A stretch of DNA of 64,000 nucleotides, taken from Blastococcus sp. (GTDB lineage: Bacteria; Actinomycetota; Actinomycetes; Mycobacteriales; Geodermatophilaceae). Below are positions 32,526 to 46,486 of the stretch, one piece after another. The stretch covers positions 1-64,000 of the forward strand of contig JAODNN010000089.1 in assembly GCA_025465355.1 (NCBI GenBank), in the 5' to 3' direction. The notes beneath the pieces are model-generated. The model did no database searches. It saw nothing but the letters and a program-made list of their open reading frames with translations, and was not told where the DNA came from. The translations under genes were made by a program, and so were the position numbers. Within the stretch, counting starts at the first letter, position 1. The number at the start of each line of letters is the position of its first letter.

Positions 32526-32576
32526 CCCCGCTGCCCCCCACCGCTCGCAAGCTCGCGGTGGGACCCTGCAGCGGGG
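32526..32576 (+). other. Nested two-stem hairpin between HPPD and HGD
   Basis: An outer 9-bp stem (CCCCGCTGC, 32526-32534, with GCAGCGGGG, 32568-32576) encloses an inner 8-bp stem (CCCACCGC, 32537-32544, with GCGGTGGG, 32555-32562). It starts 5 nt after the HPPD stop and ends 57 nt before the HGD start. It may be a partial terminator or an RNA stabiliser between the two genes. Confidence 0.6.
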
Positions 32577-32632
32577 CCGCGGCGCGGGACCCTGAAGGGT
32601 GGCCGTTCCATCCGGTCACCTGGGAGGTCACG

Positions 32633-33838
32633 ATGGCGTTCTACCGGCGGGTGGGCGACGTCCCGCCCAAGCGACACACCCAGTTCCGCCGTCCCGATGG
32701 CGGCCTGTACGCCGAGGAGCTGATGGGGGAGGAGGGCTTCTCCTCCGACGCCGCGCTGCTCTACCACCGCGGTGTTCCCTCCGCCCTCGTCGACGCCCGG
32801 CCGTGGCAGCTTCCCGACCAGACGCTGACCCCGAACGCCCCGCTGCTACCGCGACACCTGAAGCTGCACGACCTCTTCCCGGGGGAGGAGCACAAGGGGA
32901 CCGATCCGGTCACCGGCCGGCGGCTGGTGCTGGGCAACGCCGACGTGCGGATCTCCTATGCCGTGTCGTCCCTGCCCAGCCCGCTCTACCGCAACGCCAC
33001 CGGCGACGAGTGCGTCTACGTCGAACGCGGGACGGCGACCGTCGAGACCGTGTTCGGCCCGCTCGAGGTGGGCCAGGGCGACTACGTCGTCGTCCCGCGG
33101 GCGACGACGCACCGCTGGCTCCCGGGCGGCGACGAGCCGTTGCGGACCTACGCGATCGAGGCGAACAGCCACATCACGCCGCCGAAGCGGTACCTCTCGA
33201 GGTTCGGGCAGTTCCTCGAGCACGCGCCGTACTGCGAGCGCGACCTGCGCGGGCCGGACCAGCCGATGCTGGAGAGCGGCTCGGATGTCGAGATCTACGT
33301 CAAGCACCGCGGCGAGGGCCCCGGTGGGCTGACCGGCACCATCCACGTCGTCCCGGAGCACCCGTTCGACGTCGTCGGCTGGGACGGCTGCCTCTACCCC
33401 TACGCCTTCAACGTGGCCGACTTCGAGCCCATCACCGGCCGGGTGCACCAGCCGCCGCCGGTGCACCAGGTCTTCGAGGGGCAGAACTTCGTCATCTGCA
33501 ACTTCGTGCCGCGCAGGGTCGACTACCACCCGCTGGCCGTTCCGGTGCCCTACTACCACTCCAACGTCGACTCCGACGAGGTCATGTTCTACGTCGACGG
33601 TGACTACGAGGCGCGCAAGGGCTCCGGCATCGGCAAGGGGTCGATCTCGCTGCACCCGGGCGGGCACTCGCACGGCCCGCAGCCGGGCGCCGTCGAGCGG
33701 TCACTCGGTGCCGACTACTTCGACGAGCTCGCCGTCATGGTCGACACCTTCCGCCCGCTGTCGCTCGGTGAGGCCGGCACGGCGTCGGACGACGGCCGGT
33801 ACGCCTGGTCGTGGTCGGGCCGGGGCCCCTCGGCGTGA
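32633..33838 (+). CDS. hmgA: Homogentisate 1,2-dioxygenase
   Basis: Opens the homogentisate ring to maleylacetoacetate. The 401-residue protein is a cupin-fold dioxygenase; it begins with the FYRRVGDVPPKRHTQF opening of the bacterial family. Likely iron ligands lie in PYYHSNVDSDEVMFYVDG (histidine and glutamate, near residues 305-320) and in LHPGGHSHGPQPG near residue 345. It is shorter than the human or Pseudomonas enzymes (about 440), as many actinobacterial forms are. ATG 32633 is preceded by TGGGAGGT. Its stop overlaps the next GTG by 4 nt. Confidence 0.92.
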   Translation: MAFYRRVGDVPPKRHTQFRRPDGGLYAEELMGEEGFSSDAALLYHRGVPSALVDARPWQLPDQTLTPNAPLLPRHLKLHDLFPGEEHKGTDPVTGRRLVLGNADVRISYAVSSLPSPLYRNATGDECVYVERGTATVETVFGPLEVGQGDYVVVPRATTHRWLPGGDEPLRTYAIEANSHITPPKRYLSRFGQFLEHAPYCERDLRGPDQPMLESGSDVEIYVKHRGEGPGGLTGTIHVVPEHPFDVVGWDGCLYPYAFNVADFEPITGRVHQPPPVHQVFEGQNFVICNFVPRRVDYHPLAVPVPYYHSNVDSDEVMFYVDGDYEARKGSGIGKGSISLHPGGHSHGPQPGAVERSLGADYFDELAVMVDTFRPLSLGEAGTASDDGRYAWSWSGRGPSA

Positions 33839-35043
33839 CGGCTCGCGACACCTGGCTGGAGTTGCCGGAGGACACCGGTTTCGGGATCGCGAACCTGCCC
33901 CTCGGCGTCTTCTCGACGGCCGGCCGTCCACCGCGGACGGGGATCGCCATCGGGCGTCATGTCCTCGACCTCGGCGGCCTCACCGGCGATCCGGTGCACT
34001 CCACCGGCTCCCTCAACGCGTTCATGGCGCTCGGGCCCGGCGCGTGGCGCGGCCTGCGCGAGCAGGTCACCGACCGGCTCACCGACGAGCGGTACCGCGC
34101 CCGGATCGAACCCCACCTGATCCCGCGGGCCGGCGTCCGGCTGCACCTCCCGATCGCGGTGGCCGACTACGTCGACTTCTACAGCTCGGAGCAGCACGCG
34201 GTGAACGTCGGCCGGATCTTCCGCCCCGGCTCCCCGCCGCTGACACCCAACTGGAAGCACCTGCCGATCGGCTATCACGGCCGCGCCGGGACCGTCGACG
34301 TGTCCGGAACGCCGGTGCTGCGCCCGTGCGGGCAGCGCGAGGGGCCGGACGGCGAGCCGATCTTCGGCCCCTCGACCCGGCTCGACTTCGAGGCCGAGCT
34401 GGGCTTCGTCGTCGGCGCGCCGTCCGAGCCCGGGAGGCCGGTGCCGGTGGGCGCCTTTCCCGACCACGTGTTCGGCGTCTGCCTGCTCAACGACTGGTCA
34501 GCCCGCGACCTGCAGGCCTGGGAGTACGTGCCACTGGGCCCCTTCCTCGGCAAGTCGTTCCGCACGTCCATCTCGCCGTGGGTGGTGCCGCTGGCCGCGC
34601 TGGAGGAGGCCCGCGTGCGTCCGCCGGTCCGCGACCCCCGGCCGCTGCCCTACCTGAGGGACGACGAGGACCCGTGGGGCCTGGACATCACCCTCGAGGT
34701 CCGGCTCGGCGGCGAGACGGTCAGCCGGCCGCCCGCCGCTGGGCTCTACTGGACCGCGGCCCAGCAGCTGGCGCACCTGACGGTCAACGGCGCGAACCTG
34801 CGCACCGGGGACCTCTACGGCTCCGGCACCGTCAGCGGCCCGGAGCGCAACCAGCGCGGCTCGCTGCTCGAGCTGTCCTGGGGCGGTACCGACCCGCTGA
34901 CGCTGGCCGACGGCTCGGCCCGGACATTCCTGGAGGACGGCGACGTCGTCACCCTCACCGCCTCGGCGCCCGGGCCGGGCGGCACCCGGGTCGGCTTCGG
35001 CGAGGTGACCGGTCAGGTCCTCCCCGCGCGCTGCTGCCAGTAG
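33835..35043 (+). CDS. fahA: Fumarylacetoacetase
   Basis: Hydrolyses fumarylacetoacetate to fumarate and acetoacetate. The 402-residue protein has the FAH N-terminal SH3-like domain and the catalytic C-terminal domain. Metal ligands are visible: Asp in YVDFYSSEQHA near residue 110, Glu pair in DFEAELGFVVG near residue 185 and Asp in LLNDWSARDLQAWEY near residue 220. The GTG start overlaps the HGD stop. No maleylacetoacetate isomerase gene follows; in many actinobacteria a mycothiol- or glutathione-type isomerase is encoded elsewhere, and I see none in this window. Confidence 0.95.
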   Translation: MTARDTWLELPEDTGFGIANLPLGVFSTAGRPPRTGIAIGRHVLDLGGLTGDPVHSTGSLNAFMALGPGAWRGLREQVTDRLTDERYRARIEPHLIPRAGVRLHLPIAVADYVDFYSSEQHAVNVGRIFRPGSPPLTPNWKHLPIGYHGRAGTVDVSGTPVLRPCGQREGPDGEPIFGPSTRLDFEAELGFVVGAPSEPGRPVPVGAFPDHVFGVCLLNDWSARDLQAWEYVPLGPFLGKSFRTSISPWVVPLAALEEARVRPPVRDPRPLPYLRDDEDPWGLDITLEVRLGGETVSRPPAAGLYWTAAQQLAHLTVNGANLRTGDLYGSGTVSGPERNQRGSLLELSWGGTDPLTLADGSARTFLEDGDVVTLTASAPGPGGTRVGFGEVTGQVLPARCCQ

Positions 35044-35050
35044 GCGGAGG

Positions 35051-35803
35051 TCACCGGCGGTGGGCCAGCGTCACTGCGGTCACGACCACCGCGCCCAGGA
35101 CCGCCAGCTGGAGGACCGGCGCGAGCAGGGGAGCCAGCAGCACCAGTGCGGTACCCGCCGCGGCACCGGCCACCAGCCCCAGCAGGATCTCGATGCTGTG
35201 CCAGACCTCGCGGACACCGCGGCCGGTGGCCAGCCGGATCACCACGGTCGTCAGCGTGCCGGTGAGGTACGTCGTCGACATGCCGCTGACCCCGAAGCGC
35301 TGCACGGTGCTGCTCTGGATGCCCAGCGCGACCGCCGTACACAGCAGCAGCGCCAGGGCGACACCGGGCCCGGGCGCTCCGCCCGTGACCCACCAGCCGA
35401 CCGCGTACGCGGCCATGAACACCAGCTCGGCCGCCAGCCCGACCGTGACCGCCCGCGGCCAGATCGGGTCGTCCTTCGCCGGCGTCCCGGCGAGGCGGGC
35501 ACCCAGGGCGGCACCGGCGCAGAAGGCGAGGATGGCGAAGCCGGAGGATGCCGCGCGAGCGCCGTTGCCGGAGCTGGCGGCGACGCCGAGCAGGACCATG
35601 TTCCCGGTCATGACGCTGGTGAAGGCACCACCGAGGGCGAGCAGGCCGATCGCGTCGGTCGCCCCGCTCACCACCGCCAGGCTGACGACCAGCGACTGGC
35701 GCAACCGCACCGCCCGCCGGTCCCGGGTCGGCTGCGTCCCTTTGTCGGCCGGCGCTGCTGGCGTCACGGAGACGGAGCGTAGGGAGGGCGCGGGCACCGT
35801 CAC
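35051..35803 (-). CDS. DUF1275 (YoaK-type) membrane protein
   Basis: A 250-residue integral membrane protein with about six hydrophobic segments and the family landmarks SGATDAIGLLALGGAFTSVMTGNMVLLG (shown here as a long hydrophobic run from about residue 45) and GMSTTYLTGTLTTV near residue 175. The role of the family is unknown. The start is not certain: GTG 35803 gives the longest frame, GTG 35767 is an alternative, and neither has a clear Shine-Dalgarno. It faces FAH across 7 nt. Confidence 0.85.
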   Translation of the reverse strand: MTVPAPSLRSVSVTPAAPADKGTQPTRDRRAVRLRQSLVVSLAVVSGATDAIGLLALGGAFTSVMTGNMVLLGVAASSGNGARAASSGFAILAFCAGAALGARLAGTPAKDDPIWPRAVTVGLAAELVFMAAYAVGWWVTGGAPGPGVALALLLCTAVALGIQSSTVQRFGVSGMSTTYLTGTLTTVVIRLATGRGVREVWHSIEILLGLVAGAAAGTALVLLAPLLAPVLQLAVLGAVVVTAVTLAHRR

Positions 35804-35838: not shown

Positions 35839-35870
35839 ATGTGCACATCGATTCGCGGCAGGCATGTGCA
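35839..35870. promoter_or_regulatory. Two ATGTGCA repeats, 25 bp apart, before the diiron oxidase operon
   Basis: ATGTGCACAT (35839-35848, a perfect 10-bp palindrome) and ATGTGCA (35864-35870) start 25 bp apart and lie about 85-115 bp upstream of the operon's first ATG. The same hexamer (as GCACAT) with the same 25-bp period occurs upstream of the permease at 46487. They are candidate PucR activator sites. Confidence 0.6.
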
Positions 35871-35952: not shown

Positions 35953-36693
35953 ATGACCGAACTGCTCTCCCGCCCCGAACTGCTCAGCCACGAGGAATTC
36001 CGCGTCGCACTGCAGGACGCCATCAAGGGCCGTGAGGCGAAGAACGCCTCCTTCAGCAAGGCCTGGGCCGACGGCAAGCTCGAGCGCCACCACTTCGCCC
36101 GCTGGGCCGAGAACCACTACCAGTACGTCGGCCCGTTCGCCGACTACCTGGGCATCGTCTACGCCAACACCCCGGACACCTGCACCGAGGCCAAGGACTT
36201 CCTGCTCCAGAACATGTACGAGGAGGAGCTGGCCGACATCCGCCACACCGACCTGCTCATCCGCTTCGGTGAGGTCTGCGGCACGACCCGCGAGCGCATC
36301 GAGGACCCGAACAACGCCAACGCCGTGACCCGGGGCCTGCAGGCCTGGTGCTACGCCACGGCGCTGCGCGAGCACTTCGTGGTGGCCACGGCCGCGCTGG
36401 TCGTGGGCCTGGAATCGCAGGTGCCCGAGATCTACAAGAAGCAGATCATCCCGCTCCGTGGGGTGTACGGCTTCACCGAGGACGAGATCGAGTTCTTCGA
36501 CCTCCACATCACCTCGGACGTGGTGCACGGCGAGCGCGGCTACCAGATCGTGCTCGAGAACGCGAACACCCCCGAGCTCCAGCAGCGCTGCCTGCAGTTC
36601 GTCCGCTGGGGTGCGGAGATGCGCTACTCGTACACCCGCTCCCTGTACGACACCTACGTCGCGCCCGACCTCGAGGGCGCTGCGCAGGCCTGA
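35953..36693 (+). CDS. Haem-oxygenase-fold diiron oxidase (PqqC/TenA/CADD-like)
   Basis: A 246-residue all-helical protein of the HDO superfamily, which includes PqqC, CADD, UndA and the N-oxygenases SznF and RohS. Candidate iron ligands lie in ENHYQYVGPFADYL near residue 58, NMYEEELADIRHTDLLIRFGE near residues 90-110, and the C-terminal LHITSDVVHGERGYQ near residue 190. Start ATG 35953 follows AGAAGG. No other PQQ gene is present, and Rieske ferredoxin plus ferredoxin reductase genes follow, so an oxygen-activating oxidase that takes electrons from them is more likely than PQQ synthesis. Candidate reactions are N-oxygenation or oxidative C-C or C-N cleavage; the substrate is unknown. Confidence 0.85.
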   Translation: MTELLSRPELLSHEEFRVALQDAIKGREAKNASFSKAWADGKLERHHFARWAENHYQYVGPFADYLGIVYANTPDTCTEAKDFLLQNMYEEELADIRHTDLLIRFGEVCGTTRERIEDPNNANAVTRGLQAWCYATALREHFVVATAALVVGLESQVPEIYKKQIIPLRGVYGFTEDEIEFFDLHITSDVVHGERGYQIVLENANTPELQQRCLQFVRWGAEMRYSYTRSLYDTYVAPDLEGAAQA

Positions 36694-36708
36694 GCGCCGT
36701 AGTCGACC

Positions 36709-36737
36709 GGGTGCCGGGCGCGAGCCGCCCGGCACCC
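36709..36737 (+). terminator. 12-bp hairpin after the diiron oxidase gene
   Basis: GGGTGCCGGGCG (36709-36720) pairs perfectly with CGCCCGGCACCC (36726-36737) around a 5-nt loop, 16 nt after the stop codon in a 136-nt gap. No U-tract follows. It may attenuate transcription or stabilise the upstream mRNA so that the oxidase is made in excess of the electron-transfer genes. Confidence 0.55.
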
Positions 36738-36829
36738 CGTCGCGTTCAGTGCGGCCCACGAGCCGCCTCCCGTACATCCTCGCCGGACGACGGCCGGCCC
36801 CTTTCGCACGACCGCGACGGAGATCTCTC

Positions 36830-37267
36830 GTGAGCGAGCCCACCGCCACTGCCCCCGATGCCGGCCGAACCCGGTCGGCCGACGCCGCCTCCTGGGTGCA
36901 CGTCGCCGAGATGAAGGACCTCGCCCGGCGCAAGCGCGCGCAGGTCAGCGTGGGCGGCTGCCCGATCGCGCTGTTCCTCGTCGAGGGCGAGGTCTTCGCC
37001 ATGGACGACGTCTGCACCCACCAGGAGCGTTCGCTCAGCAAGGGCACGCTCCTCAATGGCCAGGTGATCTGCCCGGGCCACCAGTGGAAGTTCGACCCCC
37101 GCACGGGCGAGGCCGAGGACCAGGACGGGCGCCAGGCCACGTACGCGGTGCAGGTCACCGAGGGCGGTTCGATTCTGGTCGACCCCACCCCTGCGACGCC
37201 GCGGCACAACAGTGCGTCCGGCGCCGCCGCCACCGTTACCGCCGACGCCGCCCCCGTCGCGAGGTGA
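36830..37267 (+). CDS. Rieske-type [2Fe-2S] ferredoxin
   Basis: A 145-residue protein with one Rieske domain. The cluster ligands are CTH near residue 63 (DDVCTHQERSL) and CPGH about 20 residues later (QVICPGHQWKFD), with the FDPRTGEA segment usual in dioxygenase ferredoxins. A disordered Ala/Thr-rich stretch occupies the first 20 and last 25 residues. GTG 36830 follows ACGGAG. It is 5 nt from the ferredoxin reductase gene, and the pair should form an NADH-to-ferredoxin relay to the diiron oxidase. Confidence 0.92.
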   Translation: MSEPTATAPDAGRTRSADAASWVHVAEMKDLARRKRAQVSVGGCPIALFLVEGEVFAMDDVCTHQERSLSKGTLLNGQVICPGHQWKFDPRTGEAEDQDGRQATYAVQVTEGGSILVDPTPATPRHNSASGAAATVTADAAPVAR

Positions 37268-37272
37268 GTTCC

Positions 37273-38502
37273 ATGTCCGAGCAGACCCTGGTCGTCATCG
37301 GTGCCGGTCACGTCGCCGCGTCCGCCGCCCGTGCGCTGCGCCGCCGCGGGTTCGCCGGAGCGATCGTGCTCGTCGGTGACGAGCCCGTCGGTCCCTATCA
37401 GCGGCCGCACCTGTCCAAGGAGCGGCTGGCCACCGGGGGCGACGCCGGGCTGTGGCTGCTCGACCCGGCGTGGTGCGAGGCCAACGACGTCACGCTCCGC
37501 ACGAGCAGCCCCGTGGACCGCATCTCCACCGGCACCGGAGAGGTGCTGTTGACCGACGGCACCGCCCTGCGCGCCGACCTCGTGCTCGTCGCGACCGGTG
37601 GCCGGCCGCGACAGCTGCCCGGTGTCGAGGGCGACCGGGTGCACTCCATCCGCTCGCTGGCCGACAGCGACCGGCTGCGTGAGCGCCTGCTGCCCGGCCG
37701 GCGCATCGGCGTGCTGGGCGGCGGCTTCCTCGGCACCGAAGTGGCCGCCGCGGCGCTGCGCCGAGGCGCCGAGGTCGTCGTGTTCGACCGTGACCCGGTG
37801 CTGCTCGCCCGGGTGCTGGGCGCCGACATCGGCGCGGCGGTCACCGGTCTCCATCGGCAGCGCGGCGTCGAGCTGCGACTCGGCACGGCCGTCACCGAGA
37901 TCCGCACCTCGGCCGACGGCGTCACCGTGGTGACCGCCGGGGGCGCAGAGAGCGTGGACGACCTCGTCGTGAGCATCGGGATCGAGCCCGACACCGACGT
38001 CGCCGTCCGGTCCGGGCTCGTGGTGGGCAACGGCGTCGAGGTCGACGCGCAGGGCCGCACCTCGGTCCCGACCGTCTTCGCGGCCGGCGACGTGGCGGCA
38101 CACGACCACCCGCGCTACGGCCGCATCCGGGTGGAGCACGTCGACGTCGCCCAGCAGCAGGCCGCCGCGATCGCCTCGACCCTCGCCGGCCGGCCCGCCA
38201 CGTTCGCCGACCCGCACTGGTTCTGGACCGACCAGTTCGACATCAACGTGCAGGGCCTGGGCCTGGCCGGCATCCGCGCGGACGACGTCCTCGTCAGCCG
38301 CGGGAACCCCCGAGCCCTCGACGGCACGGTCTTCTGGCTTCGGGACGGCGGAATCGTCGCCGCGGCCACCGTCGAGCGCGGCGAGGACATCTCGGTGGCC
38401 CGCGAGCTGATCGACCTCGAGATCCCGGTCAGCGCCGGGCAACTCGCCGACGAGTCGGTCGAGCTCGAGGACCTGCTGGACCAGGAAGAGGTGCCGGTCT
38501 GA
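37273..38502 (+). CDS. NAD(P)H:ferredoxin reductase, FAD-dependent
   Basis: A 409-residue reductase of the dioxygenase-ferredoxin/putidaredoxin reductase family. The FAD loop is VVIGAGHVAASAARAL at the N-terminus with PYQRPHLSKE near residue 45; the NAD loop is GVLGGGFLGTEVAAAAL near residue 145; the second FAD motif is VFAAGDVAAHDHP near residue 265, and the C-terminal reductase domain has FWTDQFDINVQGLG. It should reduce the preceding Rieske ferredoxin. The stop overlaps the aldehyde dehydrogenase ATG by 1 nt (TGATG). Confidence 0.94.
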   Translation: MSEQTLVVIGAGHVAASAARALRRRGFAGAIVLVGDEPVGPYQRPHLSKERLATGGDAGLWLLDPAWCEANDVTLRTSSPVDRISTGTGEVLLTDGTALRADLVLVATGGRPRQLPGVEGDRVHSIRSLADSDRLRERLLPGRRIGVLGGGFLGTEVAAAALRRGAEVVVFDRDPVLLARVLGADIGAAVTGLHRQRGVELRLGTAVTEIRTSADGVTVVTAGGAESVDDLVVSIGIEPDTDVAVRSGLVVGNGVEVDAQGRTSVPTVFAAGDVAAHDHPRYGRIRVEHVDVAQQQAAAIASTLAGRPATFADPHWFWTDQFDINVQGLGLAGIRADDVLVSRGNPRALDGTVFWLRDGGIVAAATVERGEDISVARELIDLEIPVSAGQLADESVELEDLLDQEEVPV

Positions 38503-39968
38503 TGGCTTCCCGCACGGTGCGCAACCTCGTCGACGGGGAGTGGGTCGAGTCGCTCAGCGGACGCACCCGCGAACGCCGCAACCCCGCCGACACCCGCGAC
38601 GTCGTCAGCACCTTTCCCGAGTCCGACGCGAAGGACGCCGACGCGGCCGTGTCGGCTGTGGCCGCCGGCTGGGAGGCCTGGGCCGCGACCGGCCCCGAAC
38701 AGCGGGCGACGGTGCTCGAGGCCGCCGCAGGGATCCTCGAGCGGCAGCGGGACTCGCTGATCGAGGATCTCGTCCGCGAGGAGGGCAAGACCCGGGCCGA
38801 GGCGACCATGGAGGTCTCCCGTACGCCGATGAACCTGCGGTTCTACGCGGGCGAGGCGATGCGCACGGCCGGCGTGACCCTCCCGACCGGCGACGGCAGC
38901 CTGGTGTTCACCCTCCGCGCGCCGGTCGGTGTCGTCGCGGCGATCACGCCCTGGAACTTCCCGCTCAACATTCCCTCGCGCAAGCTGGGTCCCGCTCTCG
39001 CGGCCGGCAACGGCGTCGTCTTCAAGCCCAGCGAGGTGACCCCGCTGCTGGGTCAGCGGCTGGTCGACGCGCTGCTCGCGGGCGGCCTGCCGGCCGGCGC
39101 GATCGCGGTCCTGCACGGCGGCGCCGAGGTCGCCTCGGCGCTGGTCACCGACGACCGGGTCGACGCCGTCACCTTCACCGGCTCGACGAACGTCGGCGAG
39201 TCGATCCACCGTGCCTCGCGCGCCAGCCGGCGCACCCAGCTCGAGATGGGCGGCAAGAACCCCGTCGTCGTCCTGGAGGACGCCGACCTCGACCGCGCCG
39301 CCAACCTCATCGTCAAGGGCGCGTTCGGGTTGTCCGGGCAGGCGTGTACGGGCACGAGCCGGGTGCTCGTGCACGACGCGGTGCACGACGCGCTGCTCGA
39401 GCGCATCGCGGCCGGGGCGCAGGCGCTGCGCGTCGGTCCGGGGCTCGTCGACGGCGTCGACATGGGGCCGCTGGCCAACGAGCGTCAGCGGGACTCGGTG
39501 CTGGGCCACGTGGCGCGGGCCCTCGACGACGGCGCGCGGCTGGTGATCGGCGGCCCCGCCGACGACACCCAGGACCTCACCGCCGGCGACCTGGCGCACG
39601 GGCACTTCGTCCGCCCGACGATCTTCGCCGACGTCGACCCGGCGTCGGCGCTGGCGACCGAGGAGGTGTTCGGGCCGGTGCTGGCCGTGCTGCGGGTGCA
39701 GTCCCTCGACCATGCCGTCGAGCTCGCCGACGCGACCCGGTTCGGGCTCTCGGCCGGCATCGTCACGGCCGACGTCGCCCGGGCTCTCCGGTTCGCCCGC
39801 CGGGTGACCGCGGGCCTGGTCAAGGTGAACCAGCCGACCACCGGCCAGGCGATGAATGCCCCGTTCGGGGGTCTCAAGGACAGCAGCACCCAGACGTCGA
39901 AGGAACAGGCAGGGGATTCGATGATGGCCTTCTACACGGTCGACAAGACCGTCTACCTGAGCGCATGA
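38502..39968 (+). CDS. Aldehyde dehydrogenase (2-oxoglutarate-semialdehyde dehydrogenase-like)
   Basis: A 488-residue NAD(P)-dependent ALDH. The catalytic glutamate is in LEMGGKNPVVV near residue 250 and the cysteine in GLSGQACTGTSR near residue 284; PWNFPLNIPSRKLGPAL marks the cofactor site near residue 150. GQACTGTSR is the form seen in alpha-ketoglutarate semialdehyde and similar sugar-acid dehydrogenases. It overlaps genes on both sides (TGATG, ATGA), so it is translated with the diiron-oxidase system and probably oxidises the aldehyde that system releases. Confidence 0.93.
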   Translation: MASRTVRNLVDGEWVESLSGRTRERRNPADTRDVVSTFPESDAKDADAAVSAVAAGWEAWAATGPEQRATVLEAAAGILERQRDSLIEDLVREEGKTRAEATMEVSRTPMNLRFYAGEAMRTAGVTLPTGDGSLVFTLRAPVGVVAAITPWNFPLNIPSRKLGPALAAGNGVVFKPSEVTPLLGQRLVDALLAGGLPAGAIAVLHGGAEVASALVTDDRVDAVTFTGSTNVGESIHRASRASRRTQLEMGGKNPVVVLEDADLDRAANLIVKGAFGLSGQACTGTSRVLVHDAVHDALLERIAAGAQALRVGPGLVDGVDMGPLANERQRDSVLGHVARALDDGARLVIGGPADDTQDLTAGDLAHGHFVRPTIFADVDPASALATEEVFGPVLAVLRVQSLDHAVELADATRFGLSAGIVTADVARALRFARRVTAGLVKVNQPTTGQAMNAPFGGLKDSSTQTSKEQAGDSMMAFYTVDKTVYLSA

Positions 39969-40408
39969 CCGTCCCGGAGAAGGGGGCCGTCGTCCCTGCG
40001 TCGGAGGAGGAGCTGGCCGCGGCCGGCACCGAGTGCGCGTTCGTCCGCATCTGCCGGGCGGGCCAGGTGCCCAACGGCTACGTGCGCCGCTTCTACGCCG
40101 AGACGGAGCACGGGCAGGTCGAGCTCGCGGTGGCCCGCCTGGACAACCGCGCCTACGCCACGTCCAACTACTGCACCCACCTGGACTGCCTGCTCAGCTC
40201 CGGCAAGCTGCAGGACGACGGCATCCGCTGCTCCTGCCACAACAGCGTGTTCGACCTGCAGACGGGTGAGCCGATCCAGCCGCCGGCCACCGAGCCCATC
40301 CGCACCTACCCGGTACGGGAGGAGGACGGTCAGGTGTTCGTCGGGCTCTCCGAGCGGGACGTGCTGGAGGGCGGTCCACGTCGCCGCAAGCCACCGTCGG
40401 CTCAGTGA
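39965..40408 (+). CDS. Second Rieske [2Fe-2S] protein
   Basis: A 147-residue Rieske-domain protein. Ligands are CTH in NYCTHLDCLLSS near residue 63 and CSCH in IRCSCHNSVFDL near residue 84, the latter in an unusual Cys-rich setting (four cysteines in about 25 residues). It has no catalytic oxygenase domain. It differs from the first ferredoxin in sequence and may serve a second acceptor, or be a subunit of the GGT-like step. The ATG overlaps the aldehyde dehydrogenase stop and its stop overlaps the next GTG. Confidence 0.88.
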   Translation: MTVPEKGAVVPASEEELAAAGTECAFVRICRAGQVPNGYVRRFYAETEHGQVELAVARLDNRAYATSNYCTHLDCLLSSGKLQDDGIRCSCHNSVFDLQTGEPIQPPATEPIRTYPVREEDGQVFVGLSERDVLEGGPRRRKPPSAQ

Positions 40409-42033
40409 CACCGGCAGCGGGGGAGTGGCCGCCGTCCTGGGGGCCCGTCCGCACGCCGACCCTCGCGACGGCGGGGATGGTGAGCAGCAGCTCGCCGGCC
40501 GTCAGCCAGGTCGGCGCGCGCGTCCTCGCGGACGGCGGCACCGCCGTCGACGCCGTGCTGGCGATGACCGCCATGTCCTGGCTCGCCCTTCCCGGCCAGT
40601 GCGGGATCGGCGGCGACGCGTTCGCCGTGGTGCGCGAACCGGACGGACAGGTCTGGACCGTCAACGGCAGCGGCTACGGCCCCGACGGCGCCTCCGCCGA
40701 GGCCTACCGGGACCGTGGATTGTCCACGGTCCCGATGACCGGACCGCTCGCCGTGGCGACGCCCGGCGCGCCGGGAGCCCTTTCCACCCTGCACGCCCGA
40801 GGTGGCACCCGGGACCTGACGGAGCTCTGGGCGCCGGCCGTGGTGGCGGCGCGCACCGGCCTGCCCTGCACCGCCAAGAACCGCCGCGACATCGCCGAGC
40901 ACGCCGACGCGCTCGCCCGGGATCCGGGCCTGGCGCAGTGGCTGCTGCCCTCCGGCCGGGTACCGGCGGTGGGCGACCTCCTGCCGGCCGGCGAGCTGGC
41001 CGGGACCATCGCCCGGCTGGCCCGCAGCCCGCTGTCCCTCAACCGCGGCGAGCTGGCGGAGCGGGCCGTGGAATTGCTGCAGGACGGCGGCGCGCCGTTC
41101 TCCGGCGACGAGTGGTGCCTCGGAGGCGAGGTGCCGGCGGAGCACGCGATCAGTGCGCCCTACGGGGACCTGACGGTCCACCAGACGCCGCTCCCGTCAC
41201 CGGGCTGGATGGTGCTGCAGCAGGCCGGACTCCTCGACGGACTGCTGGCTGATCTCCCCACGTCCTCGGCCCAGGCGGTCCACCTGCTGGCACTCGCCGC
41301 TCGCCGGGCCTTCCGCGACCGGTACGAGCTCTGTGCGTCCGATTCCGATGCCTGGAGCTTCCTGCTCACCGAGGAGAGCCTGGGCCGGGCGCGGCGGGAG
41401 CTGCGGCAGGAACCGGCGATCGTCACGGCGCCGGGCGGTAGCGCCGGGGACACGACCAGCTGCCTCGCCGTGGACGCCGACGGGCGCGCGGTCAGCGCGA
41501 TCTCCTCGCTGGCCTTCACCTTCGGCGCCCGCATCTCGATCCCCGGCACCGGGGTCGCCCTGAACAATCGGCTGGCGCGGGGCGCCTATCTTCTGCCGGG
41601 CCATCCCAACGCGCTGGCCCCACGGCGCAAGCCGCTGCACACCTTGAACGCCTGGATCGCCACCGACCGCGCCGGCCGGCTGCGACACGTGGGCAACACC
41701 CCCGGGGGGGACGGCCAGGTGCAGTGGAACATGCAGCTGCTCGCGCACCTGGTCGACGGCGGTCTGGATCCTGCGCAGGCGGTGTCGGCGCCGCGGACGA
41801 CCGTGCATCCCGGCAGCGACGCGGACGCCCTCGGGACACCGGAGACGTTGCAGTGCGAGACCCGGCTGGGTGCAGAGGTCCTGGCGGGGCTCGCCGAGCG
41901 CGGCCACGTCCTGCGCGACGTCGGTGACTGGGGGGCGGGCGGCAGCGCGCTGGTCATCTCGGTCGACGACGGCCGCGGCGTCCTCGCCGGCGCGGCCGAT
42001 CCGCGGCAGGACGGGGTGGCGCTCGGTGTCTGA
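40405..42033 (+). CDS. Gamma-glutamyltransferase-like Ntn hydrolase
   Basis: A 542-residue protein of the gamma-glutamyltranspeptidase/acylase family with no signal peptide, so it is cytoplasmic, unlike classical GGT. The autoprocessing threonine is in SAGDTTSCLAVD near residue 350, followed by the small-subunit landmarks PGTGVALNNRLARG, RRKPLHTLNAWIA and NTPGGDGQVQWNMQ. The N-terminal half has CGIGGDAFAVV near residue 67. It could hydrolyse or make a gamma-glutamyl amide or another amide of the pathway substrate. It overlaps both neighbours. Confidence 0.88.
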   Translation: MTPAAGEWPPSWGPVRTPTLATAGMVSSSSPAVSQVGARVLADGGTAVDAVLAMTAMSWLALPGQCGIGGDAFAVVREPDGQVWTVNGSGYGPDGASAEAYRDRGLSTVPMTGPLAVATPGAPGALSTLHARGGTRDLTELWAPAVVAARTGLPCTAKNRRDIAEHADALARDPGLAQWLLPSGRVPAVGDLLPAGELAGTIARLARSPLSLNRGELAERAVELLQDGGAPFSGDEWCLGGEVPAEHAISAPYGDLTVHQTPLPSPGWMVLQQAGLLDGLLADLPTSSAQAVHLLALAARRAFRDRYELCASDSDAWSFLLTEESLGRARRELRQEPAIVTAPGGSAGDTTSCLAVDADGRAVSAISSLAFTFGARISIPGTGVALNNRLARGAYLLPGHPNALAPRRKPLHTLNAWIATDRAGRLRHVGNTPGGDGQVQWNMQLLAHLVDGGLDPAQAVSAPRTTVHPGSDADALGTPETLQCETRLGAEVLAGLAERGHVLRDVGDWGAGGSALVISVDDGRGVLAGAADPRQDGVALGV

Positions 42034-42490
42034 GCCGGACGCGGGCGATGCGCCTGTTCCGGAGCCGGCGCAGTTCTCGGTGCCGCCGCAGGGCGCCTAC
42101 GTGCCGGCCGTCGTCCACCACGGCCTGGCCTGGACGGCGGGGATGACGCCACGGCGCCACGGCGAGCTCGTCGTCCACGGGGTGGTCGGGCGGGACGTCG
42201 ACATCGCGGCCGCCCGTGAGGCGGCCGGGCTTGCGGCGGGCAATGCGCTCACTGCGGTGATCGAGGCGGTCGGCGGGCTTCCGGCCGTCGTGCGGGCCGT
42301 GAAGATGACCGTGTTCATCGCCGCGGTCGACGGCTTCACCGCGCACTCGGCTGTCGCGGACGGCGCGTCGGCGGCCCTGCGGGAGCGTCTCGGCGACCGC
42401 GGCGTCGTGGCCCGCAGCGCGATCGGTGTGCGCACCCTGCCTTCCGGCGCGCCCGTCGAGGTGGAGCTGGTCGTCGCCGTCGCTCCCTGA
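42026..42490 (+). CDS. RidA family (YjgF/YER057c/UK114) deaminase
   Basis: A 154-residue RidA-like protein. The critical arginine is in VVARSAIGVRTLP near residue 135 and GAPVEVELVV closes the fold; WTAGMTPRRHG near residue 34 is the usual opening. The first 20 residues are an acidic/proline extension. RidA proteins hydrolyse enamine or imine intermediates, so it supports an amine or amino acid substrate for the operon. The GTG start overlaps the GGT-like stop by 8 nt. A 22-bp inverted repeat follows directly. Confidence 0.88.
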   Translation: MSEPDAGDAPVPEPAQFSVPPQGAYVPAVVHHGLAWTAGMTPRRHGELVVHGVVGRDVDIAAAREAAGLAAGNALTAVIEAVGGLPAVVRAVKMTVFIAAVDGFTAHSAVADGASAALRERLGDRGVVARSAIGVRTLPSGAPVEVELVVAVAP

Positions 42491-42493
42491 CGG

Positions 42494-42548
42494 CGAGATC
42501 TGCGGACTCGCCCCCAGCGCGCTGAAGGGGGCGAGTCCGCAGATCTCG
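42494..42548. terminator. 22-bp perfect inverted repeat between convergent genes
   Basis: The arms 42494-42515 (starting CGAGATCTGCGG) and 42527-42548 pair without a mismatch around an 11-nt loop. The repeat fills the gap between RidA and the convergent HbpS-like gene, so it can end transcription from both sides. The long perfect match is beyond what a terminator needs, so it may also be a copy of a dispersed palindromic repeat. Confidence 0.8.
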
Positions 42549-42554
42549 TGCGGC

Positions 42555-43010
42555 TCAGGCGAGCGTGCCGGCCGCCGCCACCTGCTCGGCGAACGCCTGT
42601 AGGGCCGCGGCACCGACAGCCTTGTCCTGTTCGCCGTTGCCGCCGCTCACGCCCACCGCGCCGACGATCTGTCCCGCGTGCACGATCGGGAAGCCGCCGA
42701 CGAAGATCGCGAACTTGCCGGGGAGCATGTGCGCGATGCCGAACGCCTCGTTGCCGGGCAGGGCCGGCCCGTTGGGGGGCTCGTTGAACAGGTGGGTGGC
42801 CCGTTCGTGACCGGCCGCCGTGAACGCCTTGGCCATCGCGATCTCGACGCCGGTCAGCCGGGCACCCGGCAGCCGATGCAGGGCCAGGACGTTTCCGCCG
42901 TCGTCGCAGACACAGATCGTCTGCTTGACACCGAGCTCCTCGGCTTTGGCCCGTGCCGCCTCGAGCATCGGCAGAGCGTCATCGAGGGTGATCCGGAAGA
43001 CCTGGTGCAC
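42555..43010 (-). CDS. GlcG/HbpS-family (DUF336) protein
   Basis: A 151-residue haem-degrading/HbpS-like protein. Typical motifs are CVCDDGGNVLALHRLPGA near residue 31, AKAFTA near residue 60, GGFPIVHAGQIVGAVGVSGG near residues 107-126 and the ending QDKAVGAAALQAF. Members bind haem, cobalamin or small acids, and some sit in catabolic operons as accessory proteins. GTG 43010 was chosen for the GGAGGAG 6-12 bp upstream; longer frames lack a site. It diverges from the PucR gene across a palindrome-rich gap. Confidence 0.88.
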   Translation of the reverse strand: MHQVFRITLDDALPMLEAARAKAEELGVKQTICVCDDGGNVLALHRLPGARLTGVEIAMAKAFTAAGHERATHLFNEPPNGPALPGNEAFGIAHMLPGKFAIFVGGFPIVHAGQIVGAVGVSGGNGEQDKAVGAAALQAFAEQVAAAGTLA

Positions 43011-43119
43011 GGGGTTCTCCTCCTCCGGCCGGCCGGCCGGGTCGCCACGGCCGCGCTCCTCGGGACGGGGAGCCGGCTCGACTACCACCTTGGGGACTGG
43101 ACGGCGGGTCCAGCAATGG

Positions 43120-43135
43120 TGACACTGCAGTGTCA
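43120..43135. promoter_or_regulatory. 16-bp perfect palindrome in the HbpS-PucR gap
   Basis: TGACACTGCAGTGTCA is a perfect palindrome, nearly continuing to GGTTGACACTGCAGTGTCACC (20 of 21 on the minus strand). On the minus strand its TTGACA can also be a -35 element for the HbpS-like gene. It lies 40 bp before PucR. Confidence 0.6.
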
Positions 43136-43149
43136 ACCCGGCCGGTCGT

Positions 43150-43157
43150 TGTGCACA
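43150..43157. promoter_or_regulatory. TGTGCACA palindrome before PucR
   Basis: An 8-bp palindrome 18 bp upstream of the PucR start codon. The core GTGCAC also occurs in the upstream regions of the diiron oxidase operon (35839) and the permease (46402), which fits autoregulation by PucR. Confidence 0.4.
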
Positions 43158-43174
43158 GTGACCAGAGGAGCGCC

Positions 43175-44878
43175 ATGCCGCACGCGTACTCCGACGACGC
43201 GCTGACCCTCGCACGCCTCCTGCAGGAGCCGCTGCTGCGTCGCGCCCGGATCCACGCAGGGCGGGCCGGTGCGGTCACCCGGCTGGACTGGGTCGCGCCG
43301 TGGGCGGTCGCCTGGCACCAGGAGGACCTCTTGACGGGCGTCCTGGTGCATGCGCACGCCGCGGAGCTCGCGGAGCAGCAGGTCACGGTGAGCCAGGTGG
43401 CAGAGCAGCTCGCCGGCCGCGGCGCCGCGGCGTTGCTGGTGGACGGCCACCAGGCCGGGACCACCGCGACGGAGGTCGCCTGCCCGCTGACGCTGGTCAC
43501 CATGGCCGACACCGTGGCGTTCACCGCCCTCAACCGGCTCGTCGCCGACCTGACTCTCGCGCGCGAGACCCACGTGCTGCGGTACGGCCTGACCGTGCAC
43601 CGTGCGCTGGCCGAGCTGCTGTACCGGGGCGCCGAGCTCTCGGCGCTGTGCAGCCAGATGTCGCGGATGTCGCAGCGGCCGGTGGCCGTGTTCGACAGCC
43701 AGGGCGCCCTGGCCGTGCTCGAGCAGCGGCAGCCCCGGGTGGTGGAAGCGGCCGCGTTGTCCCGTGCCTTCGCCGAGCAGGCCGAGGCGCTGGGCGCCAA
43801 GGATGCGCCGGACGAGCTGCACCCACGGCTGGCCGAACTCACCGTGGCCGGCCGGTTGTTCGCGTGCGTACTGACGCCGATCGTGCTGGGCGGCCGGCAC
43901 GACGGCTGGATCCTGCTGCTGGAGGACGGCGACGATCCACACCCGCACGACCTGGCGGAGCACCGTGTCCTGGTAGAGCAGGCGGCGCCGATCGTCGGCA
44001 CCGAGATGCTGCGGCTGCGCAGCGTCCAGCGGGCCAAGGAGCAGGCGCGCGGCGACTTCGTGCACGGGCTGCTGCACGGCCGGTTCGCCACGGTGGAGGA
44101 CATCAGCGCCCGGGCTGCGCACTACGAGTTCCCCGTGCGCTCGTGGTTCGGGGTGGTGGTGGCCTCCGGGCTCACGGTGCCCGGGGACGCCGACGCCCCG
44201 GCGCGACTGCAGAACATCGCCATCCAGGCATCCCGGCTGCTGCCCGAGCAGGAGCGGCACACCCAGGCGGCGATGGTCGGAGACGTGCTGGTCGTCGTCC
44301 GGGAAGCCGCCCGCCGCGGTGTGATGGGCACGCCGGACACCGCGATCGCCACCATCGCGGAGTACGCGGCGGAACTGCACAGCTACCTCAGCCGGCGGAA
44401 GGACCAGTCCGGCCGGCCGGTCCGCGTCACCTACGGCCGGCCGGTGGTGGGCGCCCTGGCGATACCCGACAGCTACCGCGAGGCCCGCATGGCGCACGGT
44501 CTGCAGCAGCGGCTCGGCCTGCCGCCCGTCTCCGGCTACCAGGAGCTGCGGGTGCACGCGGTGCTCGAGGACGTCGCATCGAGCCGCACCGGACGCTCGT
44601 TCGCCACGGACCTCCTGGCGCCGCTCCGCGATCCGGCCGCGGGGGACCTGGAGTCCGCCGTCCTCGCCTATGTGGCCAGCGGCGGCAACGTGAACGCTTC
44701 CTCCCGCGACCTGCACATCCACCGCAACACGATGCTGTACAAGCTGGACCGGGCCTCCCGGCTGCTGGGCATGGATCTGCGCCAGGCAGAGAACCAGTTC
44801 GCGGTGTGGCTCGCCCACACCCTCGACCTGCTGGCGAACACGACCGCCGAGGTCGAGCGGGTGGTCAGCCCCGCCTGA
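43175..44878 (+). CDS. PucR-family transcriptional regulator
   Basis: A 567-residue regulator with the three PucR parts: an N-terminal ligand domain (about residues 8-125), a central CdaR GGDEF-like domain (about 300-430) and a C-terminal PucR helix-turn-helix (LESAVLAYVASGGNVNASSR, then LHIHRNTMLYKLDRASRLLG near residues 500-540). Start ATG 43175 has AGAGGAG upstream. PucR proteins activate catabolism of purines, amines or amides, which suits control of the diiron-oxidase operon and the permease gene. Its 3' end overlaps the convergent MFS gene by 14 nt. Confidence 0.92.
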   Translation: MPHAYSDDALTLARLLQEPLLRRARIHAGRAGAVTRLDWVAPWAVAWHQEDLLTGVLVHAHAAELAEQQVTVSQVAEQLAGRGAAALLVDGHQAGTTATEVACPLTLVTMADTVAFTALNRLVADLTLARETHVLRYGLTVHRALAELLYRGAELSALCSQMSRMSQRPVAVFDSQGALAVLEQRQPRVVEAAALSRAFAEQAEALGAKDAPDELHPRLAELTVAGRLFACVLTPIVLGGRHDGWILLLEDGDDPHPHDLAEHRVLVEQAAPIVGTEMLRLRSVQRAKEQARGDFVHGLLHGRFATVEDISARAAHYEFPVRSWFGVVVASGLTVPGDADAPARLQNIAIQASRLLPEQERHTQAAMVGDVLVVVREAARRGVMGTPDTAIATIAEYAAELHSYLSRRKDQSGRPVRVTYGRPVVGALAIPDSYREARMAHGLQQRLGLPPVSGYQELRVHAVLEDVASSRTGRSFATDLLAPLRDPAAGDLESAVLAYVASGGNVNASSRDLHIHRNTMLYKLDRASRLLGMDLRQAENQFAVWLAHTLDLLANTTAEVERVVSPA

Positions 44879-46310
44879 CCGGTGCGTCGACCGCCGCAGC
44901 CGGCCGCGGGTCGGGCAGCTCCCGGCCGCGGAAGCTGATGACCAGCCCCGCGGCGGCCACCGAGGCACAGCCGGCGAACAGCCACCCCAGCCCGTCGGGC
45001 CACGCGGCCGCGACCCCGGCCGTGCCGACCGCGGCGCCGACGAACCGCATCATGTTGAACAGCCCGAGGCCGGTCCCCTTCTGACCGGCAGGCGAGCGGG
45101 TGGCGCCGGTCAGCGCGGGCGTCTGGACCAGGGCGATCCCCACCCCGGCGGACACCAGCAGGGCGATGATCGGCACGAGGCGCTGCGCGCCGGAACCCAG
45201 CACCACCGCCAGCCCGATGTCGACAGCGACCAGCAGGCTCAATCCGGTACGCAGCACGGGACGGGGCCCGACCCGATCGGCGAGCACGCCGACGACCGGC
45301 GCGAGCACCGCCCACACCAGGGGGAGCGCGAAGATGAGCACGCCGGTGACGGCGGCCGACAGCCGGGTGACGCCGGTCAGGTAGAGCGGCACCGCGACCA
45401 GCACCGCGGCGAGGCTGCTCTGCTGGACGAACACCCCCGTCGCCGAGCGCAGCCACCGGATCTCGATCAGCAGCCGAGGATCGATGAACGGGGCCGCGCG
45501 CCGCAGCCCGGTGCGGACGAACACCGCGAGCGCGCAGACGCCGAGGACGGCGCCGACGACCGGCGCCCACACGGGGACGCCGGGCTGCGGAGCCGCGGTC
45601 GCCGCGGTCATGAGCAGCGCGACGCCGAGGGTGAGGGAACCGGCGCCGACGGGATCGATGCGGGCCGGCTGTCCGGAGTCGCGGGGAACGACCCGCAGGG
45701 TCAGGGCCAGCACGCCCAGGGTGAGGGGCACGAGGGCGCCGAAGATGGCGCGCCAGCCGAACGCGTCGGCGACCAGGCCGCCGACCGGCGGCCCGATGGC
45801 CTGACCGATTCCGTTGGCCGCACCCCACGCGCCCATGACGCGGCTCCGCCGCTCCGGCGGGAAGCTGCGGGCCAGCATGCCCATGACGGCGGTCGGCACC
45901 GCGGCGCAACCCAGACCCTGCAACCCGCGGCTCACGACCATCAACGCCAGGGTGGGAGCCACGGCGGCACCGACGGTGCCGGCGAGCAGAACCGACAGCG
46001 CGAGGACGAGGGTGCGACGGCGGCCCAGCCGGTCGCTGATCCATCCGGTCAACGGCATCGCGACGGCGAGCACGAGCACCGACGCCGACGCGACCAGGAC
46101 GCCCTGGGTGACCGGTGCGCCGAAGTCGGCGGTGATCTGGCGCAACGGGACGTTGACGATGTTGTTGCTGATCGTGCCCAGGACCGTGGCGCCGAGCAGG
46201 GCCGCCAGCAGCCAGCCGCGCCCGGCGGGGAGGGGAAGAACACTGCCGGGTCGTGTCGAGGGGCCCGGAGCGGCGGGAGTTACGTCGGGCTCCGTCGTCG
46301 TTTCCCGCAC
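44865..46310 (-). CDS. MFS drug/solute transporter, 14-TM DHA2 type
   Basis: A 481-residue membrane protein with about 14 hydrophobic segments. The loop motif A GWISDRLGRRRTL lies near residue 88 and RGLQGLGCAAVP near 128 corresponds to motif B; APPVGGLVADAFGWR-like residues follow near 165. DHA2 proteins export drugs or small metabolites with proton exchange. Start GTG 46310 follows GAGGGG. It may remove a toxic intermediate of the nearby oxidase pathway, or be unrelated. Confidence 0.88.
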   Translation of the reverse strand: MRETTTEPDVTPAAPGPSTRPGSVLPLPAGRGWLLAALLGATVLGTISNNIVNVPLRQITADFGAPVTQGVLVASASVLVLAVAMPLTGWISDRLGRRRTLVLALSVLLAGTVGAAVAPTLALMVVSRGLQGLGCAAVPTAVMGMLARSFPPERRSRVMGAWGAANGIGQAIGPPVGGLVADAFGWRAIFGALVPLTLGVLALTLRVVPRDSGQPARIDPVGAGSLTLGVALLMTAATAAPQPGVPVWAPVVGAVLGVCALAVFVRTGLRRAAPFIDPRLLIEIRWLRSATGVFVQQSSLAAVLVAVPLYLTGVTRLSAAVTGVLIFALPLVWAVLAPVVGVLADRVGPRPVLRTGLSLLVAVDIGLAVVLGSGAQRLVPIIALLVSAGVGIALVQTPALTGATRSPAGQKGTGLGLFNMMRFVGAAVGTAGVAAAWPDGLGWLFAGCASVAAAGLVISFRGRELPDPRPAAAVDAPVRRG

Positions 46311-46378
46311 AACCGTCCCCTCATCACTCTTCCGGCCACCGATGGTTACACCCTGCTGAGCGACTCACTACAGCAAGC

Positions 46379-46409
46379 TGCACATTCCGGAGGCGCGCGA
46401 CTGTGCACA
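46379..46409. promoter_or_regulatory. Two GCACAT repeats, 25 bp apart, before the permease
   Basis: TGCACAT at 46379-46385 and the palindrome TGTGCACA at 46402-46409 carry GCACAT copies that start at 46380 and 46405. The period matches the pair before the diiron oxidase operon. They lie about 80-105 bp before the permease ATG. Confidence 0.6.
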
Positions 46410-46486
46410 TCACTGATGGACGGGCGGTGGCGGATCCAGGACCTTCGTCCCACATCACATCGGGCTCTCCCGCTTGAGGGGCAACC

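Follow-up and report, generated by a model that had tools for sequence, protein, structure and literature searches.

Gene content of the locus

The subject of this report is a gene module around a putative heme-oxygenase-like diiron oxidase (HDO). It lies in a 64,000-nucleotide stretch of Blastococcus sp. DNA (contig JAODNN010000089.1, positions 1 to 64,000; hereafter the window), whose GC content is high (65-75% per 2 kb). A first-pass annotation made from the sequence alone had proposed an oxidative amine pathway encoded at 35953-42490 by seven genes of the same direction, of which the last five overlap. Seven plus-strand genes indeed fill this interval, and from the reductase gene onwards they overlap by 1, 1, 4 and 8 nt. 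The genes lie where they had been placed, but the module does not end there: it extends past 42490 to 48154, and the transporters, the regulator, the shared promoter motif and the DUF336 protein had been missed.

The first gene encodes the HDO (246 aa, 35953-36693, PF14518/PF03070). It is followed after 136 nt by the gene for Rieske ferredoxin 1 (36830-37267, GTG start at 36830). Next comes an FAD-dependent NAD(P)H:ferredoxin reductase of the HcaD/AndAa type (37273-38502, Pyr_redox_2 and Reductase_C), which scores below the equivalog cut-offs of those two models. The remaining four genes of the operon encode an aldehyde dehydrogenase (ALDH; 38502-39968, Aldedh), the HcaC-like Rieske ferredoxin 2 (39968-40408), an N-terminal nucleophile (Ntn) hydrolase with the fold of gamma-glutamyl transpeptidase (GGT; 40405-42033, G_glu_transpept) and a RidA-family protein (42026-42490, Ribonuc_L-PSP). 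Downstream, a DUF336 (HbpS/GlcG/EfgA-like) protein is encoded on the minus strand (42555-43010, inferred start), divergently from a PucR/CdaR-type regulator on the plus strand (43175-44878, inferred start; the longest ORF begins at 43130). A DHA2/EmrB-like transporter of the major facilitator superfamily (MFS; 44865-46310, minus strand) and a permease of 555 aa (46487-48154, plus strand) form a second divergent pair.

Conservation in Actinomycetota

A scan of one genome per species yielded 253 relatives. All locus counts refer to the best 80 of these, with an HDO identity of 78-96%, and genes were called by tblastn (E <= 1e-8, best match per locus). Loci of at least 20 kb were treated as full-length (61 of the 80); the 19 shorter ones were excluded from the gene-content counts. 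By HDO gene, the closest named relatives are Blastococcus, Geodermatophilus and Trujillonella. The 80 loci span Geodermatophilaceae, Micromonospora, Nocardioides, Pseudonocardia, Rhodococcus, Mycolicibacterium, Gordonia, Streptomyces, Actinomadura and others.

Rieske-1, reductase, Rieske-2 and RidA are present in all 61 full-length loci, ALDH and PucR in 60, DUF336 in 59, the GGT-like protein in 58, and MFS transporter and permease in 57 each. An oxidase flanked by an NAD(P)H-ferredoxin reductase relay and an ALDH, as seen by the first-pass annotation, is conserved far beyond this genome: the original seven-gene order is kept in 46/61 full-length loci, and all eleven module genes occur in 49/61. 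Because the seven-gene order recurs in this way, the association is more than chance. It also survives several reshufflings, as 15 patterns of gene content and orientation were found among the full-length loci, some of which differ merely through the end of the locus. In three Streptomyces loci the GGT-like gene is absent; HDO, electron donors, ALDH, DUF336 and permease remain. Apart from the module genes, no cluster of ORFs of at least 100 aa was found in more than 17 of the 80 loci, most minor clusters not having been family-scanned.

Within the family, the same ten of 112 genomes, including that of the window, hold close orthologues of HDO (at least 88% identity), reductase (at least 75%, searched at E <= 1e-100 only), GGT-like protein (at least 73%), RidA (at least 70%) and permease (at least 75%). 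When weaker matches are included, 16 of the 112 genomes have an HDO and 11 a permease, compared with 48 for GGT and 108 for RidA. Since these weaker matches spread wider, only the close orthologues track the HDO. Moreover, the genes travel as a block, so their co-occurrence in the family is not independent evidence for each gene.

In several loci (L079, L082, L090, L107 and others, at about 16-20 kb), the module adjoins apparent ribosomal-protein genes. This neighbourhood, seen in several Mycolicibacterium loci and in one Actinomycetota assembly, is apparently a fixed chromosomal place.

The oxidase

The oxidase had been assigned to the PqqC/CADD type. An oxidase without iron ligands on a structure model, or a gene set confined to this genome, would have refuted the first-pass annotation; neither was the case. 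For the comparison we used what we take to be the ligand numbering of CADD. E91, H98, H185, D189 and H192 are present in 84/84 homologues and E154 in 83/84, the sole exception being L053 with Lys. This corresponds to the 3-His/3-carboxylate ligand set given for HDOs in a 2026 review (PMC13108848). An AlphaFold2 model was calculated from a 39-sequence alignment; the five models had mean confidence (pLDDT) values of 40.8-85.9, and the best one (85.9) was used. It adopts the seven-helix heme-oxygenase-like fold and superimposes on CADD with Z 25.9 and a root-mean-square deviation of 1.8 over 212 aligned residues (22% identity). Further matches are PqqC (Z 24.5), HrmI (22.8) and UndA (22.3).

The closest characterized proteins, the self-sacrificing p-aminobenzoate (pABA) synthases CADD and NePabS, share with the window oxidase the fold and the six metal ligands. 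They differ from it in that CADD sacrifices Tyr27 and Lys152 (PMC11965152), which are replaced by Ser35 and Gln164 in 84/84 homologues, and in that the window HDO is encoded beside an electron relay, in an operon of catabolic appearance. Judged by alignment and model, the window oxidase is an HDO and, because of these replacements, not a self-sacrificing pABA synthase; Fe-dependent O2 activation is predicted. The CADD model score (88.1, cut-off 200) together with the missing Tyr/Lys pair rules out pABA synthesis, and the PqqC model score (TIGR02111, 37.1, cut-off 240) rules out a PqqC. In the window's genome, which is 95% complete, pqqE was the only gene of pyrroloquinoline quinone (PQQ) synthesis searched for. 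It gave three weaker matches and none above the family cut-off; the search is without a positive control because none of 14 control genomes passed this cut-off.

Between the HDO and Rieske-1 genes, a strong hairpin with a 12-bp stem (36709-36737) is a possible partial terminator; of all the operon's products, HDO could thereby become the most abundant.

Electron donors in two phyla

Both small iron-sulfur proteins are Rieske ferredoxins: the cluster ligands CxH...CxxH are found in 79/79 sequences of Rieske-1 and 74/74 of Rieske-2. HDO, Rieske-1 and reductase genes are adjacent and on the same strand in 78/80 loci.

A different arrangement was found in Pseudomonadota, where plasmid records of four Cupriavidus and two Caballeronia encode an HDO with 65-69% identity. 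Three of these loci (L127, L128 and L130) were examined by tblastn and one (L129) by annotation. They retain HDO (65-69%), ALDH (47-49%), DUF336 (55-60%) and permease (44-57%; in two pieces in L130). The Rieske proteins and the FAD reductase are replaced by two Fer2 ferredoxins and a BenC-like reductase. An ornithine-cyclodeaminase (OCD)-family protein takes the place of RidA, and a GntR-family regulator that of PucR. L127 has an additional regulator, apparently of the IclR type, and the Caballeronia loci have an extra alpha/beta hydrolase and a porin. An actinomycetotal genome, G031 (HDO 72%), combines Fer2 ferredoxin, Rieske protein, RidA, GGT-like protein (31%), OCD, DUF336 and ALDH.

Electrons would be transferred from the reductase via a ferredoxin to the HDO. 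Besides the co-operonicity, the main reason to think that these donors feed the HDO is that the donor families differ around a constant HDO. In an alternative reading, the HDO would be a PqqC/CADD-like protein that works without a cofactor or modifies itself, and the Rieske proteins would serve a different enzyme. This reading draws on two facts: CADD and PqqC are the sole curated models that match, both below cut-off, and PQQ synthesis on the PqqC fold is reported to be metal-independent (PMC13108848). Against it, all six metal ligands are retained, the sacrificial residues of CADD are gone in 84/84 homologues, no other gene cluster occurs in more than 17 of the 80 loci, and in Pseudomonadota unrelated electron donors adjoin the HDO. 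We consider this alternative very unlikely.

More than 10,000 HDOs are known as family members; about a dozen of them have been validated, and those studied to date are described as needing no protein effector (PMC13108848). The natural electron donor of an HDO can be unknown, as for Dob3, whose cluster is reported to encode no redox partner (PMC13061610). MboAB from mangotoxin biosynthesis is, according to its authors, possibly the first characterized dedicated pair of HDO and redox partner (PMC13185094). Like the module, it encodes an HDO together with a dedicated NAD(P)H-dependent partner. In contrast, MboB is described as a single flavin/Fe2S2 reductase protein in a biosynthetic pathway, whereas in the module a separate FAD reductase is paired with two Rieske ferredoxins, or a BenC-like reductase with Fer2 ferredoxins, and ALDH, transporters and a regulator accompany them. 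The donor families of the module, FAD reductase and Rieske ferredoxin, are those of the three-component Rieske dioxygenases (HcaCD and AndAab donors), but an HDO would take the place of the Rieske alpha subunit as terminal oxygenase.

Three minor observations concern the Pseudomonadota loci. The Cupriavidus OCD (L127:10916-11842) matches PDB 3hdj, a probable ornithine cyclodeaminase, with E 7e-112; 3hdj, which is presumably a Bordetella protein, may be a solved structure from such a module. A small protein is encoded between the two Fer2 ferredoxins in Caballeronia (L128:11075-11422, no NCBIfam match) and Cupriavidus (L127:8397-8735, no Pfam match). The accessible text of the Cupriavidus metallidurans CH34 genome paper mentions neither TenA nor PqqC, and its sole mention of an ornithine cyclodeaminase concerns a different locus.

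Enzymes encoded around the oxidase

The catalytic residues of ALDH, C282 and E248, are kept in 72/72 aligned sequences. Where the gene is not located between reductase and Rieske-2, as in the Pseudonocardia- and Streptomyces-type patterns, the ALDH match is just 40-45% identical. The nearest models are of the alpha-ketoglutaric-semialdehyde type, with a score of 512.9 (cut-off 750), and the Cupriavidus OCD reaches 145.5 (cut-off 322). Substrate guesses such as cyclic imino acids, N-heterocycles or a ketoglutaric semialdehyde route would rest only on such below-cut-off scores and are not claimed.

The GGT-like protein belongs to the same fold family as GGT and cephalosporin-acylase-like Ntn hydrolases (PDB 2nlz, 2i3o) and shares their nucleophile: Thr351 is present in 65/65 aligned sequences, 3 of 68 being unaligned at this position. 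It scores 184.8 bits with the GGT equivalog model (cut-off 357.85). We compared it at Arg114, Asp433 and Ser462-Ser463 of E. coli GGT, which we take to be the glutamyl-binding sites. The Arg114 position is S89 in 65/65 aligned sequences, the Ser462-Ser463 positions are H412 (63/64) and T413 (64/64), and at the Asp433 position there is either a gap or Arg392. Because the residues that hold the glutamyl group are replaced although the catalytic Thr is kept, gamma-glutamyl substrates are unlikely for this predicted hydrolase.

This bears on a route in which amines would be broken down with O2 as gamma-glutamyl amides and the GGT-like enzyme would remove glutamate, substrates that the first-pass annotation had also put forward. 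Oxidizing amines in their gamma-glutamyl form is an established strategy, and a GGT-fold hydrolase, an ALDH and a RidA are co-operonic here. With S89, H412-T413 and the gap or Arg392 at the glutamyl-binding positions, and with no further gene cluster, hence no glutamyl ligase, in more than 17 of the 80 loci (a search confined to the loci), this route is very unlikely.

In the RidA-family protein, Arg130 is kept in 69/69 and Glu145 in 68/68 aligned sequences, presumably the active-site residues; its TIGR00004 score is 25.4 (cut-off 106.25). With RidA or OCD present, the pathway may include an imine step. It is on RidA, or on its apparent stand-in, the ornithine-cyclodeaminase-family enzyme, that the amine or imine part of the interpretation rests. 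The amine pathway of the first-pass annotation is weakened, as the GGT-like gene is missing in three Streptomyces loci and RidA and the GGT-like gene are both unmatched in the three Pseudomonadota loci examined by tblastn.

The DUF336 protein and transport

The DUF336 protein is a clear member of its domain family (PF03928, 119.4 bits, cut-off 25). With a median identity of 77% it ranks second in conservation among the module proteins, behind the HDO (83%). Its best solved match is EfgA (E 1.6e-20), a formaldehyde sensor (PMC8153426). Equivalents of EfgA residues K57, S114 and D121, three ligand-binding residues, are kept in the DUF336 proteins of 72/72 loci with a match (84 searched). The module protein differs from EfgA in being encoded beside an HDO operon. 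The role of DUF336 proteins in catabolic clusters has been called elusive so far (PMC8153426).

The MFS transporter scores 176.7 bits with the DHA2/EmrB model (cut-off 230.2). The permease has no significant Pfam or NCBIfam match (best Pfam E 0.55); TRAP and VcINDY are among seven matches of its structural model with E <= 0.001, and this weak TRAP-M/DASS resemblance hints at an anion as substrate. Additional permeases accompany amidase-signature genes in some taxa. In three Geodermatophilaceae loci (L133-L135), an amidase-signature gene and the gene for a second permease of the same family overlap, and the pair lies between PucR and MFS; a second permease of this family is present in 4/10 module genomes of Geodermatophilaceae. 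Another amidase-signature gene, 33-35% identical to the former group, is found near the module in four Mycolicibacterium/Mycobacterium and two Actinomadura loci and adjoins a second permease in 5/6 of them. These arrangements hint at amide precursors.

A DHA2-like transporter and an EfgA-like homologue of a stress sensor in one putative regulon would also suit detoxification, in which the HDO would destroy a toxic nitrogen compound and the MFS transporter expel it, without feeding growth. In addition, one protein that appears to be HDO-related, DtpC of Acinetobacter baumannii, is reported as a desiccation protection factor (PMC13232832). However, a dedicated permease in 57/61 full-length loci and the extra permease-amidase pairs in some taxa suggest uptake, and we regard detoxification as quite unlikely.

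A permease homologue (44-54%) was also observed in genome G430 (L136, 901-9811), where it accompanies a Rieske oxygenase, a PucR-type regulator and a TadA-like deaminase; a hydrolase of the alpha/beta type and a reductase were recognized there from the translations. No HDO match was found in G430. The permease family may thus serve several oxygenase-based pathways.

A shared promoter motif

The 64 kb of the window contain exactly three copies of the motif TGTGCACA, one in each of the three promoter regions of the module: upstream of the HDO operon (35840-35847, a putative operator), between the divergent DUF336 and PucR genes (43150-43157) and between the divergent MFS and permease genes (46402-46409). 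Three or more sites anywhere were obtained in 4/100 shuffles of the window. In the whole genome there are 26 palindromic TGTGCACA sites, 3 of them in the module; a reversed-pattern control gave 11.

As the motif was first noticed in the window, the relatives serve as the test. Sites with at most one mismatch were counted in 220 bp of upstream DNA, and the expectation was derived by Markov resampling. Before the HDO gene, such sites were found in 55/80 loci (8.4 expected), exact ones in 13/80. The other promoter regions gave 34/68 for DUF336 (6.6 expected), 41/68 for PucR (7.4), 43/68 for MFS (8.7) and 59/68 for permease (10.7). Since divergent genes share regions, these five enriched upstream sequences amount to about three independent tests. 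Numbers before internal genes were 11/79 for Rieske-1 (8.3 expected), 12/79 for the reductase (6.8), 5/73 for ALDH (3.5), 1/74 for Rieske-2 (4.1) and 6/70 for RidA (4.3). The shared motif suggests that the module is regulated as a unit, with TGTGCACA as the putative operator to which PucR would bind.

Proposed function

We believe that the module probably encodes a catabolic, NAD(P)H-driven multicomponent HDO oxygenase. It would begin the breakdown of an imported carboxylate that probably contains nitrogen, and an aldehyde would be set free. Confidence in any named substrate is low. NAD(P)H would supply electrons to the FAD reductase, from which they would reach the diiron HDO by way of one Rieske ferredoxin or both. 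With O2, the HDO would oxidize the imported carboxylic acid and cleave a C-N or C-C bond. ALDH would oxidize the resulting aldehyde, which the EfgA-like DUF336 protein would monitor. The other product, an imine or enamine, would be handled by RidA in Actinomycetota or by the OCD-family enzyme in Pseudomonadota. The GGT-like hydrolase would free the substrate from amides, as would an amidase-signature enzyme that some taxa encode along with a second permease of its own. Through TGTGCACA, PucR would act on the three transcription units.

Several observations weigh against this proposal. The locus evidence covers just the best 80 of the 253 relatives. Close HDO homologues are patchy, with 10/112 genomes of the family; in an even draw of the phylum, an HDO with more than 33% identity was found in 2/396 genomes (the window's own and G031), and 54 others reached 20-33%. 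RidA and the GGT-like protein have no match in the three proteobacterial loci examined by tblastn, so the place of these two proteins is not fixed. For the DUF336 protein, 2a2l, whose function is unknown, is nearly as close as EfgA (E 2.4e-19). K57, S114 and D121 of EfgA are described as largely conserved throughout DUF336 (PMC8153426), and their presence is consequently no proof of aldehyde sensing. The fold match of the permease is weak (best E 7e-6; query-based TM-score, TMq, 0.35-0.52 over the seven matches). DHA2-type MFS proteins are often exporters and would also suit biosynthesis or detoxification. With respect to the motif, other 8-mers before the HDO gene are equally enriched, TGTGCACA ranking sixth; it was found in the window first, the loci are related, and the internal upstream regions consist mostly of coding DNA and are not a matched control. 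Sites are also raised before the GGT-like gene (15/67, 5.8 expected), which may be due to its divergent orientation from the permease gene in ten full-length loci.

The export option leads to a biosynthetic cluster, in which the HDO would make a small natural product or signal, the MFS transporter export it and PucR control it. Against such a cluster speak the permease, the ALDH, RidA or OCD and the PucR/GntR-type regulators, all of which are commonly found in catabolism, and also the common core recurring in two phyla. Furthermore, no assembly-line gene travels with the HDO, as no other ORF cluster occurs in more than 17 of the 80 loci. On the other side stand the DHA2/EmrB-like transporter, despite its score below the cut-off, and the dozen or so validated HDOs, which are described as biosynthetic (PMC13108848). 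We regard a biosynthetic role as unlikely.

The first-pass annotation knew of no described system with this content, and no description of the module was found in the open-access full-text literature, which omits most subscription journals. The enzyme class is known; the assembly appears to be new. We give about even chances to a wider interpretation, according to which the module is the first example of multicomponent HDO oxygenases for growth on a nutrient, a counterpart of the Rieske dioxygenases. Their donors would have been recruited at least twice, as Rieske ferredoxins with an FAD reductase in Actinomycetota and as Fer2 ferredoxins with a BenC-like reductase in Pseudomonadota. This would be an undescribed pathway in two phyla, with a DUF336 protein monitoring the aldehyde released by the HDO. 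The module, patchy among many soil bacteria, joins a kind of HDO met until now chiefly in natural-product synthesis to its own electron donors, transporters, ALDH and regulator; this suggests an undescribed breakdown pathway for a nutrient. Catabolism would thereby be added to the chemistry of HDOs, and DUF336 proteins would gain a concrete setting. With its conserved HDO, dedicated donors in two alternative relays and a putative regulon, the module would be an assayable system for electron supply to HDOs, and motif and permease make the substrate findable through induction screens.

Neighbouring genes

Homogentisate-dioxygenase-like (cupin) and fumarylacetoacetase genes are located just upstream of the HDO region (32558-35043). 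Among the loci of the 80 relatives, the fumarylacetoacetase gene is matched in only two (L050 and L105). A gene for a DUF1275 membrane protein (35051-35803, minus strand) is arranged head to head with the HDO gene in the window. This pairing is also found in several Geodermatophilaceae, Micromonospora and Nocardioides loci; DUF1275 lies outside the wider module.

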